This document shows positions 1,202-35,660 of a DNA stretch of 64,000 bases, piece after piece. The position numbers and the translations under genes are program-made. The stretch covers positions 74,501-138,500 of the forward strand of contig NZ_CP049742.1 in NCBI RefSeq assembly GCF_015482585.1. The letters run 5' to 3'. The notes beneath the pieces are model-generated. The model searched no databases. It worked only from the letters and a program-made list of their open reading frames with translations, and was not told where the DNA came from. This stretch comes from Mangrovibacillus cuniculi (GTDB lineage: Bacteria > Bacillota > Bacilli > Bacillales > R1DC41). Positions within the stretch are counted from its first letter, which is position 1. Each line of letters starts with the position of its first letter.

Positions 1202-1742
1202 AGATGTACTTTTGAACAGAAAGATTCCATATCATATGATCGCGGTCTTTTCCCCAATAGTCTTTCAGGTGAATAGTGGGAGCTCCAAATTTTTTGCACC
1301 AAACTTGCTGCGCAGCAATAAACCCACTGTCTAAATAGAATCGGGTCATTTGCTTAGCGTGAAGTTCTACCAACATGCTCTTTACTAAAAAACTACCGAC
1401 CCCTTTTTGTTGATAGGAAGGGTGAATGTAAACAGTTCCGACCTCTACAAATGTTTGAGGATCTTCTTCAACCCATTCTTGAATAAGCGAGTTTGGAGGG
1501 CCATATTCAATCGTTCCAATCAATTCATCATCAAGAAATGCTAATAAGAAAAAACGATCTTTTCCATTGCTCCGAAAATCGACTTCTAAGTATGTTTTCT
1601 TTTCTTCTATCTCCTGCTGGATGTCCTCTACCTTATCGCCAATCCCATCTTTTTCATATGTGTCGAAAATCATCAATTCGAAAAATCGATGTAAGATATG
1701 GACGTCAGTTACAGTAGGTCGACGAAGTGTAACAGGTAACAT
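1200..1742 (-). CDS. GNAT-family N-acetyltransferase
   Basis: 180 residues. It should transfer an acetyl group from acetyl-CoA to an unidentified amine. The acetyl-CoA binding motif A is visible as VGTVYIHPSYQQKGVGSFLV (Q/R-x-x-G-x-G/A type) in the second half, preceded by the beta strand ELIGTIEYG. The start is placed at an ATG 8 bases after GAGG; a GTG three codons upstream sits on the ribosome site itself. Monocistronic and convergent with the heptad-repeat gene. The substrate cannot be told from sequence. Confidence 0.8.
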   Translation of the reverse strand: MLPVTLRRPTVTDVHILHRFFELMIFDTYEKDGIGDKVEDIQQEIEEKKTYLEVDFRSNGKDRFFLLAFLDDELIGTIEYGPPNSLIQEWVEEDPQTFVEVGTVYIHPSYQQKGVGSFLVKSMLVELHAKQMTRFYLDSGFIAAQQVWCKKFGAPTIHLKDYWGKDRDHMIWNLSVQKYI

Positions 1743-3844: not shown

Positions 3845-3937
3845 ATTTTTCCACCACCTTAGAGGTAAAAGCTTGTTCGTAGATATATATGGAGTGAATG
3901 GGAGGTTTAGAAGTGGGAGTTTTCTACTGTTTTTGGG

Positions 3938-4268
3938 GATAACGTGTGGTCAAGAAGGAGTAGTTGTGTTGCAGAGCACCCGTTAAATGGATAACGTGCG
4001 CTCAAGGAGAGGAGGAGAGATTGTAGAGCACACGTTAAATGGATAACGTGCGCTCTAGGAGGAGAGGAGAGGGTGTAGAGCACACGTTAAATGGATAACG
4101 TGCGCTCAAGGAGAGGAGGAGAGGTTGTAGAGCACCTGTTAAATGGATAACGTGTGCTCAAGGAGGAGAGGAGAGGTTGCAGAGCACACGTTAAATGGAT
4201 AACGTGCGCTCAAGGAGGAGAGGAGAGGTTGCAGAGCACACATTAAATCAATAGCATGCGCTCAAGAT
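3938..4268. repeat. Tandem hairpin array B1: six 52-bp units plus a half unit
   Basis: AGAGCAC starts fall at 3973, 4025, 4077, 4129, 4181 and 4233, exactly 52 bp apart, with a half unit before them. Arms GAGCACACGTTA and TAACGTGCGCTC pair at 11 of 12 positions over a six-base AATGGA-type loop. The spacer is almost pure purine (AAGGAGAGGAGGAGAG type). Located between the divergent dehydrogenase and galE, just upstream of the galE control region. Confidence 0.9.
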
Positions 4269-18137: not shown

Positions 18138-18415
18138 GGGGTGGTTGTGAAAATGGGCGAAGCGGAGATTTGAGGACCATGAGCGAGTGGAGATGGTTGT
18201 GAAAAGTGTGTAAACGGATATTTGAGGACTGCGAGCGAGTGGAGGCGGTCGTGAAAAATGGGGAAGCGGAGATTTGAGGACCGTGAGCGGGTGGAGACGG
18301 TCGTGAAAAGTGTGGAAGCGGGGATTTGAGGACTGTCAGCGTCGTGGGATGGTCGTGAAAAGTGGGAGAGCGGAGATTTGAGGACCGCGAGCGAGTGGAG
18401 ACGGTCGTGAAAAAA
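18138..18415. repeat. Tandem hairpin array A2: five 52-bp units plus a half unit
   Basis: GAGGAC starts at 18172, 18224, 18276, 18328 and 18380, exactly 52 bp apart. Same family as A1: arms GAGGACCGTG and GACGGTCGTG around a GAGCGAGTGGA-type loop, then a purine-rich spacer ending GAGATTT. Located between co-directional genes, directly after the operon terminator. Confidence 0.9.
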
Positions 18416-18929: not shown

Positions 18930-19158
18930 GAGATAACGTGTGTTCAAGGAGAGGTATGAGAGAAGTAGAGCACACGATAACTGAATAACGTGTGTTCAAG
19001 GAGAGGTATAAGCAGAGAAGAGCGCACGTTAAATGAATAACGTGTGTTCAAGGAAGGGTATTTGAGAAGTAGAGCGCACGTTAAATGAATAACGTGTGGT
19101 CAAGAATGGATTTGAGAGAAGTAGAGCACACATTAAATAAATAACAAGTGCTCTACAA
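18930..19158. repeat. Tandem hairpin array B2: four 52-bp units plus a half unit
   Basis: AGAGCRC starts at 18967, 19019, 19071 and 19123, exactly 52 bp apart. Same family as B1: arms GAGCGCACGTTA and TAACGTGTGTTC with a short AATGAA loop, then a GGAGAGGTA-type purine-rich spacer. Lies between convergent genes. Confidence 0.88.
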
Positions 19159-25356: not shown

Positions 25357-25412
25357 GTTAAAATTCTCTCTTTTTTAATTTAGATACAAGGTACATAGAG
25401 TGAACTTTTTGT

Positions 25413-25816
25413 CGCGGACCACGAGAGGCAGGGAAATGCGATTTAGGTGTGCCGCAAGAGCGTCTCGCGGGCCACGAGAGGCAGGAAAATTCGGTTCAGG
25501 TGTCCCGCAAGAGCGTCTCGCGGACCACGAGAGGCAGGAAAATGCGGTTCAGGTGTCCCACAAGAGCGTCTCGCGGACCACGAGAGGCAGAAAAATGCGG
25601 TTCAGGTGTCCCACAAGAGCGTCTCGCGGACCACGAGAGGCAGGGAAATGTGATTCAGGTGTCTCGCAAGAACGTTTCGCGGACCACAAGAGGCAGAAAA
25701 ATGCTGTTCAGGTGTCCCACAAGAGCGTCTCGCGGACCACGAGAGACAGGGAAATGTGATTTAGGTGTCCCGCAAGAGCGTCTCGCGGACCACAAGAGGA
25801 AGGAAAATCTGGTTTA
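25413..25816. repeat. Tandem hairpin array D1: 53-bp units
   Basis: GGTGTC-type starts at 25446, 25499, 25552, 25605, 25658, 25711 and 25764, exactly 53 bp apart, with a half unit before. Arms GTGTCCCGCAAG and CTCGCGGACCAC pair imperfectly (9 of 12) over loop AGCGT, followed by a GAGGCAGGAAAATGCGGTTCA-type spacer. It continues into array C1 in the same register. Confidence 0.9.
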
Positions 25817-26745
25817 GGTGTCCTGCAAAAATCCGCCGCGGTATAGCAGAAGCGAGAAAACAGAGATCAGGTATACCAGGGGAAGCCGCCGCGGTATAGC
25901 AGAAGCAAGAAAACAGAGCTCAGGTATACCAGAGGAAGCTGCCGCGGTATAGGAGAAGCAAGAAAACGGAGCTCAGGTATACCAGAGGAAGCTGCCGCGG
26001 TATAGGAGAAGTAGGAAAATCTGGTTTAGGTGTCCTGCAAAAATCCGCCGCGGTATAGCAGAAGCGAGAAAACAGAGATCAGGTATACCAGGGGAAGCCG
26101 CCGCGGTATAGCAGAAGCAAGAAAACAGAGCTCAGGTATACCAGAGGAAGCTGCCGCGGTATAGGAGAAGCAAGAAAACGGAGCTCAGGTATACCAGAGG
26201 AAGCTGCCGCGGTATAGGAGAAGTAGGAAAATCGAGTTTAGGTATACCAGAGGAAGCCGCCGCGGTATAGCAGAAGCAAGAAAAGCGAGTTCAGGTATAT
26301 CAGAGTAAGCTACCGCGGTATAGCAGAAGCAAGGAAACAGAGTTCAGATATACCAGAGGAGGCCGCCGTGGTATAGGAGAAGTAGGAAAATCGAGTTCAG
26401 GTATACCAGAGGAAGCCGCCGCGGTATAGCAGAAGTAGGAAAATCGAGTTCAGGTATACCAGAGGAAGCCGCCGCGGTATAGCAGAAGCAAGAAAACAGA
26501 GCTCAGGTATACCAGAGGAAGCTACCGCGGTATAGCAGAAGCAAGAAAACAGAGCTCAGGTATACCAGAGGAAGCCGCCGCGGTATAGCAGCAGGTAGAA
26601 AACAGAGCTCAGGTATACCAGAGGAAGCCGCTGCGGTATAGCAGAAGCAAGGAAACAGAGTTCAGGTATACCAGAGGAAGTCGCCGCGATATAGCAGAAG
26701 CAAGAAAACAGAGTTTAGGTATACCAGGAGACCGAACCGTAATAT
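25817..26745. repeat. Tandem hairpin array C1: about eighteen 53-bp units
   Basis: From 25817 to 26718 the unit starts keep the same exact 53-bp step as D1, without any indel. Typical unit: GGTATACCAGAGGAAGCCGC, CGCGGTATAGCAGAAGCAAG, AAAACAGAGCTCA. TATACC and GGTATA pair over a 15-base loop, and GGTATACC is itself a palindrome. Units at 25817 and 26029 are D/C hybrids. Contains a perfect 212-bp duplication at 25801-26224. Lies between a pseudogene and a convergent lipoprotein gene. Confidence 0.92.
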
Positions 26746-31189: not shown

Positions 31190-31271
31190 TAATGATAGAT
31201 TGAATGCGAAGGATATGCGAATGTGTGTTCTTTTTTTGTTTGTCCGATAGAGATGATTTGTAATTATTTTC

Positions 31272-31585
31272 TCGAAGACCACGAGAAGCGGAAAAAGTGA
31301 GTACAGGTGTCCCACAAGAACGCCCCGCGGAGCACGAGAAGCGGAAAAGGTAGTGTAGGTGTCCCGCAAGAGCGTCTCGCGAACCACGAGAAGAGAGAAA
31401 ACCGTTTTCAGGTGTCCCGCAAGAGCGTCTTGCGGAGCACGAGAAGCGGAAAAGGTAGTGTAGGTGTCCCGCAAGAGCGTCTCGTGGACCACGAGAAGCG
31501 GGAAAAGGTAGTGCAGGTGTCCCGCAAGAGCGTCTCGCGGACCACGAGAAGAGGGAAAACCGTGTTCAGGTGTCCCGCAAAAACG
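31272..31585. repeat. Tandem hairpin array D2: 52/53-bp units
   Basis: GGTGTCCC starts at 31306, 31358, 31411, 31463, 31516 and 31569, with alternating 52- and 53-bp steps. Same family as D1. The last unit passes into a short C-type stretch with GCGGTATAGCAG and GCTATACC at about 31590-31630. Confidence 0.88.
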
Positions 31586-33229: not shown

Positions 33230-33311
33230 CGCCATCCTCCTTTTGGAAAATACTAGTTATTATTCTATCATGTGTGATACACTATAACTACAATTTCGAA
33301 AGGACTGATGG

Positions 33312-33365
33312 GTGAACGATGAAGTACTAATCTTATTCTCACTATTTGAAAATAACTTCAAATGA
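33312..33365 (+). CDS. Leader peptide of the ABC-F gene
   Basis: 17 codons from GTG, seven bases after AAAGGA: VNDEVLILFSLFENNFK in standard code, first residue Met. It lies within the leader of an ABC-F resistance-type gene. Its bases 33326-33332 (ACTAATC) can pair with GATTAGT at 33374-33380, so ribosome stalling on it should alter folding downstream. Small leader ORFs of this type occur upstream of several antibiotic-induced ABC-F genes. Translation is inferred. Confidence 0.55.
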   Translation: MNDEVLILFSLFENNFK

Positions 33366-33372
33366 CGAAATT

Positions 33373-33478
33373 GGATTAGTCTGCCCATTTTTACTTATAC
33401 AGAAATAGTTGTGCCCACGCACGGCTTATTTCGTTACGGCTTGACTAATCCTTCCATTACTAATGGGAGGATTTTTTT
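33373..33478 (+). promoter_or_regulatory. Transcription attenuator in the ABC-F leader
   Basis: Terminator: AATCCTTCCATT/AATGGGAGGATT at 33447-33473 with a 3-base loop and seven T residues, only 24 bases before the ABC-F start. Antiterminator: GGATTAGTC at 33373-33381 pairs perfectly with GACTAATCC at 33443-33451, which takes the terminator's left arm. GATTAGT can instead pair with ACTAATC inside the leader peptide gene. Three competing stems make a ribosome-controlled switch likely. Confidence 0.7.
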
Positions 33479-33501
33479 CTCCCTAGAAACGAGGGATTTG
33501 T

Positions 33502-35076
33502 ATGAACGAATGGCTAAAACTACACAATGTTTCCTACACCGTTGAGGGTGAAACGATTTTAGAGAATGTTAATTTGTCGGTGAAACAAGGAGATGTAGTA
33601 GGTCTCATTGGGAAGAATGGTGCCGGCAAGTCTACTCTTCTACGAATGTTGAAGGGCGATTTGCTGCCAACGAAAGGTGATCTATCCGAGGTTGTGTCCG
33701 GATTACAAGTGTACCTGGTGGAACAATTTACTGAGAAAAAGGGCGAGTTTCAACATCTTAGTGGCGGCGAAAAGCGAAAGATCAGCTTATCTAAAGGGTT
33801 CTCCAACAATGCAGATATCTTATTACTAGATGAGCCAACGAATCACTTGGATGAAAAAGCGCTGCAAGTTTTAATGGACCAGATTAAAAAATATGAAGGA
33901 ACTGTCATTATCGTTTCTCATGATCGGTTTTTCTTAGACCAAATAACAAAAACGATCTGGTCAATTGAGGATAAACGGATCCGTGAATACAAAGGAAATT
34001 ATTCGGACTTTGCACATCAGCGGAAGCAGGAAAGGCAGGCGCAAGCACGAGCGTATGAGAAGCAGCAGAAGAAAATTGCGCGGATGGAAGGGCAGATGAA
34101 TGAGCTGACGAATTGGTCGCACAAAGCGCATGCGCAATCGACGAAGCAGGAGGGATATAAGGAGTATTACCGCGTGAAAGCGAAACGGATGGATGCGCAA
34201 GTGAAGTCGAAGCGAAAGCGATTGGAGAATGAGTTGGCAAAGGAATCGGTCGATCGACTGCAAGCGGATTATGAAGTTTCGTTTGCGTTTTCTGCGAATA
34301 ATAAAGTTGGGAAGCGGTTCTTGCAGGTAACGAACGTGGCGAAGCGTTTTGGGGAGAGAGTCTTGTTTGAGAACCTAAACGAAACAGTAAAGTACGGAGA
34401 AAAGATCGGAATCGTTGGACCGAACGGAAGTGGGAAGACGACGCTCCTTCGAGGCATTCTTGGAAATGAGGAAATGGACGGAGACATCTGGATTTCTCCT
34501 GCAGCGAAAATTGGTTACATCTCGCAAGAAATTACAGATCTCCCACTGGATAAAACCCCTGCGGAATGGTTCTATCAAGAGAGTTATGAGAAAAAAGGGA
34601 AAGTACAAAACATGATGAAACACCTTGGATTCTCAGCGCGCCAGTGGGAAGAGCCGTTTGGCGAGATGAGCATGGGAGAGCGGATGAAGTGCAAGTTGAT
34701 GGAGCATCTGCTGGACGAAAAAGATGTGCTCGTGCTGGATGAGCCAACGAACCACTTGGACCTCGAGTCGCGGGAGCAGTTGGAAGAAACGTTGGAGCAA
34801 TACACGGGTACGCTTCTAATTGTCTCGCACGATCGCTACTTTATGGATAAAGTGACGACGGAAAAGTGGCTGCTGCAAGACGGGAGAATCGTGAAACAGT
34901 CGACGCTTGAGATTGCAAGTGTGGATGACGTGCAAGAGCGGAAGATGAGACTAGAAACGGAGAGGCAGGAAGTGCTAGGAAAGTTGAGTTTCGCCGCCCC
35001 AGGAAGTCAGGAATATCAAGCGTTGGATAAGCGATTTTCGGAGTTGATGGAAGAGTTGAAGGGTTTGAGTTTGTAG
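33502..35076 (+). CDS. ABC-F ribosomal protection ATPase (VmlR/Vga/ExpZ-like)
   Basis: 524 residues with two ABC domains and no membrane segment. Walker A motifs are GKNGAGKST and GPNGSGKTT; signatures LSGGEKRK and MSMGERMK; both Walker B motifs end DEPTNHLD. The interdomain linker with WSHKAHAQSTKQEGYKEYYR and KAKRMDAQVKSKRKR is that of the VmlR/Vga antibiotic-resistance group, which dislodges lincosamides, pleuromutilins or streptogramins A from the ribosome. Drug range cannot be predicted. Expression is probably switched on by antibiotic stress through the attenuator upstream. Confidence 0.9.
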   Translation: MNEWLKLHNVSYTVEGETILENVNLSVKQGDVVGLIGKNGAGKSTLLRMLKGDLLPTKGDLSEVVSGLQVYLVEQFTEKKGEFQHLSGGEKRKISLSKGFSNNADILLLDEPTNHLDEKALQVLMDQIKKYEGTVIIVSHDRFFLDQITKTIWSIEDKRIREYKGNYSDFAHQRKQERQAQARAYEKQQKKIARMEGQMNELTNWSHKAHAQSTKQEGYKEYYRVKAKRMDAQVKSKRKRLENELAKESVDRLQADYEVSFAFSANNKVGKRFLQVTNVAKRFGERVLFENLNETVKYGEKIGIVGPNGSGKTTLLRGILGNEEMDGDIWISPAAKIGYISQEITDLPLDKTPAEWFYQESYEKKGKVQNMMKHLGFSARQWEEPFGEMSMGERMKCKLMEHLLDEKDVLVLDEPTNHLDLESREQLEETLEQYTGTLLIVSHDRYFMDKVTTEKWLLQDGRIVKQSTLEIASVDDVQERKMRLETERQEVLGKLSFAAPGSQEYQALDKRFSELMEELKGLSL

Positions 35077-35173: not shown

Positions 35174-35660
35174 TGCAGTATAGGAGAAGTGGAAAAAGCG
35201 AGCTCAGTTATTCCAGAGGAAGCCGCCGTGGTATAGGAGAAGCGGAAAAATCGAGTTCAGGTATACCAGAGGAAGCTGCCGCGGTATAGGAGAAGTCGGA
35301 AAATGGAGTTCAGGTATACCAGAGGAAGCTGCCGCGGTATAGGAGAAGTCGGAAAATGGAGTTCAGGTATACCAGAGGAAGCCGCCGCGGTATAGGAGAA
35401 GTGGAAAAAGCGAGTTCAGGTATACCAGAGGAAGCTGCCGTGGTATAGGAGAAGCGGAAAAATCGAGCTCAGGTATACCAGAGGAAGCTACCGTGGTATA
35501 GGAGATGTGGAAAAATCGAGCTCAGGTATACCAGAGGAAGCTGCCGCGGTATAGGAGAAGCAGAAAAATCGAGCTCAGGTATACCAGAGGAAGCGCCAGA
35601 GGTATAGGAGAAGCGAGAAAAGTAAGTTTAGGTATACCGCAAGAGCGTCTCGTGGGACAT
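35174..35660. repeat. Tandem hairpin array C2: nine 53-bp units
   Basis: Unit starts at 35207, 35260, 35313, 35366, 35419, 35472, 35525, 35578 and 35631, exactly 53 bp apart. Same family as C1 with arms TATACC/GGTATA. The last unit turns into D-type sequence (GCAAGAGCGTCTCGTGGGAC), a C/D hybrid. Between the ABC-F gene and a convergent small gene. Confidence 0.92.

Follow-up and report, generated by a model that had tools for sequence, protein, structure and literature searches.

The leader of about 215 nt that precedes a 524-codon ABC-F gene on the plus strand of the window (the whole 64,000-nucleotide stretch of Mangrovibacillus cuniculi DNA that we analysed) is very probably a vmlR-type, ribosome-dependent transcription attenuator, a reading to which we assign a probability of about 0.93. 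Its sensor is a three-codon upstream open reading frame (uORF), not a 17-codon leader that begins at GTG. A sequence-only reading of this DNA had proposed a three-way attenuator that controls an ABC-F resistance gene. The proposal, taken as a switch between anti-antiterminator, antiterminator and terminator, is supported by the folds of the leader, its match to the Rfam family RF02452, and pairing that is kept across homologues. Here, we describe the anatomy of the leader, its family membership, its two folds, and its conservation. The mechanism itself was already published for Bacillus subtilis vmlR in 2022 (PMC9226507).

When the 64 kb of the window were scanned against all 4227 Rfam families, RF02452 (ncr1575) was the sole match over its gathering threshold. 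The name ncr1575 reportedly goes back to Irnov et al. in 2010. A permissive-filter Rfam search of the leader likewise returned RF02452 alone, with no riboswitch and no T-box. The leader is present as a single copy in the window's genome, and among 14 control genomes, RF02452 was detected in B. subtilis only. A simple scan for a promoter near the leader gave only 9-of-12 matches, and the −10-like TATACT of homologues aligns, as read by eye, with a poor GATACA-like stretch in the window. Across the window's order, RF02452 was found at an E-value of 0.001 or better in 151 of 397 genomes and over the cut-off in 96; the window's family is represented in this set by the window's genome alone. We read 91 loci, comprising the best 30 matches, 60 chosen down the list, and the window's own. 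Lying outside these loci are the matches over the cut-off from 13 genomes (G228, G097, G178, G314, G335, G193, G114, G374, G273, G373, G293, G182, and G297) and most of the matches below it. A separate protein scan of the genome contigs yielded, among the matches listed, ABC-F genes 27-35% identical and mostly from Bacteroidota, and its 80 loci (L032-L111) were excluded. The features of the window leader and its gene are as follows.

33286..33478, plus strand: whole leader element, RF02452 (ncr1575), model positions 1-212 of 212; cmscan 123.4 bits, gathering threshold 60
33299..33304, plus strand: putative Shine-Dalgarno sequence of the uORF, AAAGGA, 14 nt before the AUG
33307..33389, plus strand: SL-1, anti-antiterminator hairpin, from folding and pair counts; basal helix 33307-33312:33384-33389, core 33326-33333:33373-33380, apical helix 33343-33350:33357-33364
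33319..33330, plus strand: uORF AUG AAG UAC UAA (Met-Lys-Tyr), proposed drug sensor, aligned to AUG AUU AAC UAA of RF02452
33326..33332, plus strand: segment 1, ACUAAUC, 5' arm of the anti-antiterminator core, containing the uORF stop codon
33373..33381, plus strand: segment 2, GGAUUAGUC, common to the anti-antiterminator and the antiterminator
33407..33426, plus strand: SL-2, corresponding to the pause hairpin of the B. subtilis leader
33426..33431, plus strand: TTATTT, fitting the NusG pause motif TTNTTT; putative pause function by analogy with B. subtilis (PMC9226507)
33443..33451, plus strand: segment 3, GACUAAUCC, 3' arm of the antiterminator, overlapping the left arm of the terminator
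33447..33478, plus strand: SL-3, intrinsic terminator; stem 33447-33473, U tract of seven T at 33472-33478
33480..33496, plus strand: SL-4, hairpin hiding the gene's Shine-Dalgarno sequence GAGGG (33491-33495); counterpart of SL-4 in B. subtilis (PMC9226507)
33502..35076, plus strand: ABC-F ribosome protection protein, VmlR group, 524 aa; NF000355 at 464.2 bits, cut-off 380

The gene starts 24 nt past the end of the element. The three segments had been placed by the sequence-only reading as ACTAATC at 33326-33332, GGATTAGTC at 33373-33381, and GACTAATCC at 33443-33451, and both letters and coordinates proved exact. Segments 1 and 3 are both complementary to segment 2, giving two mutually exclusive pairings, and segment 3 overlaps the terminator stem (33447-33473) by five bases. 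Segment 1 does not lie within a 17-codon leader peptide as had been suggested; it spans the last sense codon and the stop codon of the three-codon uORF and two further bases. When the 193-nt leader was shuffled 5000 times with its dinucleotides preserved, the exact three-way complementarity of 9 nt plus 7 nt appeared in 3 shuffles and the 9-nt pair alone in 252. The claim that these segments give a complete model stood as far as the three-way switch is concerned and took no account of two hairpins, SL-2 (the pause hairpin, with a TTNTTT motif) and SL-4 (over the Shine-Dalgarno sequence of the gene).

Loss of pairing in homologous leaders, which had been named as evidence against the model, was looked for in an alignment of 62 VmlR-type leaders (the window's own plus 61 drawn from the other 90 loci), and the pairing is kept instead. 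The 29 loci left out of this alignment, including L169, have more distant ABC-F or MFS genes behind the leader or no gene. In the 62 sequences, 98.2% of the cells of the SL-1 core (8 pairs) are paired, with one core pair broken in eight sequences. The antiterminator (segments 2 and 3) is paired in 98.7% of cells, and in at most 55.6% when slid by one to three columns. Because the sequence hardly varies, neither helix shows compensatory changes in these sequences (none in the nine antiterminator pairs, where 500 of 500 shuffles scored as high, and none in the eight SL-1 core pairs). Such near-invariance would be expected where one segment matches two partners, one of which carries a stop codon. 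Changes on both sides occur in six of the seven SL-2 pairs counted (33408-33425), in four of the eight pairs of the apical SL-1 helix, and in 4 of 12 terminator pairs. TTNTTT is present in the SL-2 region of 51 of the 62 sequences and missing from 11, and a crude pattern search for SL-4 gave matches in 45 of the 91 loci.

We then modeled the folding of the switch. Left free, the window leader folded into SL-1, SL-2, SL-3, and SL-4, with a pairing probability of 0.94-1.0 for segments 1 and 2 and of 0 for segments 2 and 3. The minimum-energy fold of the window sequence itself pairs the base of SL-1 in a different register from the basal helix listed above, which is the one kept in the alignment. 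When positions 33286-33335 were blocked to mimic a ribosome sitting on the uORF, the pairing of segments 2 and 3 rose to 0.94-1.0 and the terminator opened. In this blocked fold, 33465-33471 pairs with 33477-33483, which releases SL-4. The idea that stalling frees segment 2 for the antiterminator holds in the blocked-uORF fold, and only its designation of the 17-codon leader as sensor fails.

Folds were also computed for 90 loci. In free folds, the outer left arm of the terminator paired with the right arm at a probability of at least 0.8 in 81 of 90 loci. When the RNA was blocked and cut at the terminator loop, upstream pairing of the left arm reached at least 0.5 in 86 of 90 loci; in full-length blocked folds it did so in only 35 of 90, and a control block in the full-length fold gave upstream pairing of this arm in 0 of 90. 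An earlier terminator measure registered a switch in 5 of 90 loci; it was unsuited because it included the upper part of the stem, which persists in the antiterminator fold, and the outer-left-arm measure took its place. In window RNA cut before the right arm of the terminator, with no ribosome, the antiterminator reached 0.8-0.9 and SL-1 0.1. The off state must therefore rest on SL-1 forming first, since the antiterminator is favored at equilibrium even without a ribosome. In B. subtilis, a pause has been proposed to let SL-1 form first during transcription (PMC9226507).

Two frames were compared as candidate sensors. A tripeptide uORF of the form AUG-NNN-NNN-stop occupies the same place in 90 of the 91 loci (the window included; the exception is L169), a conservation that is partly circular because uORF bases are part of the model used to find the loci; the contrast between the three-codon and GTG frames is free of this circularity. 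The encoded peptides (n = 90) are MIN in 34, MKN in 17, MDN in 12, MKY in 7, MYN in 4, and others, and the stop codon is UAA in 87, UGA in 2, and UAG in 1. The putative Shine-Dalgarno sequence lies 14 nt from the AUG in 55 of 90 loci and 12-16 nt in 89, the same geometry as that of the sequence mutated in the B. subtilis vmlR leader (PMC9226507). We consider it very unlikely that the same attenuator is instead governed by the 17-codon leader from GTG 33312, as the sequence-only reading had it. That frame is open in the window (VNDEVLILFSLFENNFK), and the 7 nt between AAGGA and its GTG are a more typical distance than the 14 nt before the AUG. In the fold, a ribosome stalled at the GTG would likewise free segment 2 (0.63-1.0). 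However, the length of the frame is not conserved: a start codon occupies the GTG position in 75 of 90 loci, where the frame has 4 codons in 47 of the 75 and 17 in the window alone. A ribosome at the end of the 17-codon frame would also cover segment 2, leaving no antiterminator in the fold. Finally, in B. subtilis the start codon was placed by toeprinting, and this result and a start-codon mutant point to the three-codon AUG; mutation of either the Shine-Dalgarno sequence or the AUG virtually eliminated VmlR expression (PMC9226507). A second tiny frame at 33308-33322 (AUG GGU GAA CGA UGA in the window) overlaps the start of the uORF. Its AUG is present in 73 of 90 loci and it encodes MGGR in 32, but it may be incidental because it coincides with the basal arm of SL-1.

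With the three-codon uORF as sensor, the switch would operate as follows. Without drug, ribosomes would pass the uORF (33319-33330), and SL-1 would form from segments 1 and 2; the terminator SL-3 would then close, and transcription would end before the gene. A drug that arrests ribosomes at initiation or immediately afterwards would hold one on the uORF, with segment 1 covered. Segment 2 could then pair with segment 3, so that the terminator could not close and the polymerase would continue, while the freed right arm of the terminator would pair with the left arm of SL-4 and open the ribosome-binding site of the gene. Judging from B. subtilis and from the group to which the protein belongs, the stalling drugs would be lincosamides, pleuromutilins, and streptogramin A, and a NusG pause and induction would be expected as well. 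Two other accounts of the element have to be weighed against this one. That SL-4 over the Shine-Dalgarno sequence is the main switch, with translation attenuation only and an incidental terminator, is extremely unlikely in our view. SL-4 and its alternative partner are present in the window leader, and translational attenuation alone keeps C. difficile cplR off without antibiotic (PMC10201436). Nevertheless, the terminator is strong and nearly invariant, and repression in B. subtilis depends critically on SL-3, whereas an SL-4 mutant has a moderate induction defect and no leak (PMC9226507). The transcriptional and SL-4 layers probably work together. We give least credence of all to a trans-acting small RNA, the role implied by the typing of RF02452 in Rfam as Gene; sRNA. 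Termination would presumably let a leader RNA of about 190 nt accumulate, and at L022 the element has no ABC-F gene behind it, but 89 of 91 loci have the element ahead of an ABC-F or MFS gene (the others being L022 and L020, which ends at a contig edge). The element also carries a uORF and a terminator with exclusive partners, and regulation in cis was demonstrated in B. subtilis (PMC9226507). The L022 leader (1501-1704, minus strand) is complete and scores 148 bits; the next long frame lies 376 nt on and, in our own reading, resembles a lipid kinase. This leader is possibly an orphan left after gene loss.

The product of the downstream gene is of the ABC-F resistance type, as had been proposed from the sequence. 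It scores above the cut-off of NF000355, an NCBIfam model for ribosomal-protection ABC-F proteins. Among PDB sequences, B. subtilis VmlR/ExpZ (6ha8) matches it best at 586 bits, with VmlR2 (8buu) at 389 bits. The linker stretch KAHAQSTK-EG-KEY-RVKAKR is kept. Between VEQ and LSGGE, the first nucleotide-binding domain of the protein is short by about 20 residues (residues ~70-90; 33700-33760), a gap found in none of 61 aligned relatives, two of which lack 4 residues there. Because these residues are missing, the activity of the protein is not certain.

Elsewhere, the window contains several tandem arrays. Arrays with a 53-bp unit lie at 25833-26727 and 35178-35638, with other 53-bp arrays at 25412-25828 and 31270-31580, and arrays with a 52-bp unit of other sequence lie at 2195-2566, 3937-4266, 18138-18413, and 18933-19145. 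The core GGTATACCAGAGGAAG of the 53-bp unit has 66 copies in the genome (at most one mismatch), and the reversed control has 0. The 54 forward copies lie at 0.01-0.69 and 3.06-3.09 Mb and the 12 reverse copies at 1.75-2.97 Mb, as if the copies were oriented with replication.

At the 91 loci, most of the genes that follow the leader are VmlR-like; VmlR2-like, Lsa-like, and Vga-like genes also occur, and two loci have an MFS transporter. The protein at L153 scored best with the Lsa model, and that at L167 is Vga-like; the label VmlR2-like denotes 36-43% identity and sequence resemblance, with no model match. At nine loci with genes that are Lsa-like by eye (L028, L112, L113, L117, L135, L145, L147, L150, and L159), the leader ends about 150-220 nt upstream, and several of these have a second Shine-Dalgarno-like site between leader and gene, perhaps marking a second small frame. 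More distant leaders have a different terminator arm, and its partner around segment 2 is shifted, namely to GAGAATAGG in L162 and L164, the shorter AGAATAGG in L155, L158, and L161, and, as read from printed folds, CTGGATAGG in several MFS leaders.

A search with the MFS protein of L166 gave a match at an E-value of 1e-120 or better in 63 of 299 genomes, and the 30 MFS loci returned by this search were scanned for the leader. An RF02452-like element (E-value of 0.01 or better; 41.7-58.1 bits, all below gathering) lies upstream of the MFS gene in 8 of 30 loci and a uORF-GGATTAGTCT motif in 9 of 30, together 11 of 30 (L172, L175, L176, L177, L179, L181, L183, L184, L186, L187, and L200). Nine MFS leaders were read, and their three-codon uORFs encode MIN, MKN, MNN, MIY, MIF, MII, and MIK. 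With the uORF blocked, upstream pairing of the terminator arm went up in eight of the nine motif-bearing MFS leaders, sometimes little, and down in L177. A scan of the 397 genomes for the motif gave matches in 80, as against 2 for a control pattern, and turned up Vga-like genes (assigned by eye) and other ABC-F genes (L234, L235, and L237). We judge it somewhat better than an even chance that one homologous sensor cassette, AUG-NNN-NNN-UAAUC ... GGAUUAGUCU, fronts VmlR, VmlR2-like, Vga-like, and Lsa-like ABC-F genes and MFS genes across the order, with a near-fixed sensor half and a terminator half that changes and re-matches around segment 2 (AGGATT, GAGAATAGG, or CTGGATAGG). The stop codon of the uORF would be locked in such a cassette because it is also a pairing arm. 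Should this wider cassette be real, leaders that sense drugs could serve in the search for inducible resistance genes of unknown kind, and initiation-stalling drugs would be predicted to switch on the MFS pumps that carry the leader. A limited literature search, covering open-access full texts only, found no report of such a leader before MFS genes, and the wider cassette is the only part of our findings that might be new.

The closest known system is the vmlR leader of B. subtilis (Takada et al. 2022, PMC9226507). There, the three-codon uORF lies in SL-1, which acts as the anti-antiterminator, SL-2 is a pause hairpin carrying the NusG motif TTNTTT, SL-3 is the terminator, and SL-4 covers the Shine-Dalgarno sequence of the gene; a ribosome stalled on the uORF lets the antiterminator form. 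The evidence also includes SL-1, SL-3, and SL-4 mutants and NusG (PMC9226507). All four hairpins have counterparts in the window. In both leaders the antiterminator is closed over SL-2, and both belong to RF02452 and precede a VmlR-group gene. The two differ in the uORF, which encodes Met-Lys-Tyr in the window and Met-Ile-Asn in B. subtilis; the variants tested there are MIN, MDN, MDK, and MRK, a set that does not include MKY (PMC9226507). Unlike B. subtilis VmlR, the 524-aa window protein has the gap of about 20 residues in its first nucleotide-binding domain. Very short uORFs also precede the ARE ABC-F genes VmlR2 of Neobacillus vireti and cplR of Clostridioides difficile (Obana et al. 2023, PMC10201436). 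The VmlR2 uORF consensus MK[L/Q] resembles the MKY of the window (PMC10201436), whereas the window protein is closer to VmlR than to VmlR2 by bit score. In C. difficile cplR, unlike in the window, the terminator stem itself hides the Shine-Dalgarno sequence of the gene (PMC10201436). Rfam describes RF02452 as a Bacillus sRNA; the evidence here makes the element a cis-acting leader and suggests that the label should read accordingly. To the published mechanism, the window adds an organism and the MKY variant of the uORF, and the sensor first proposed for it is corrected from 17 codons to three.
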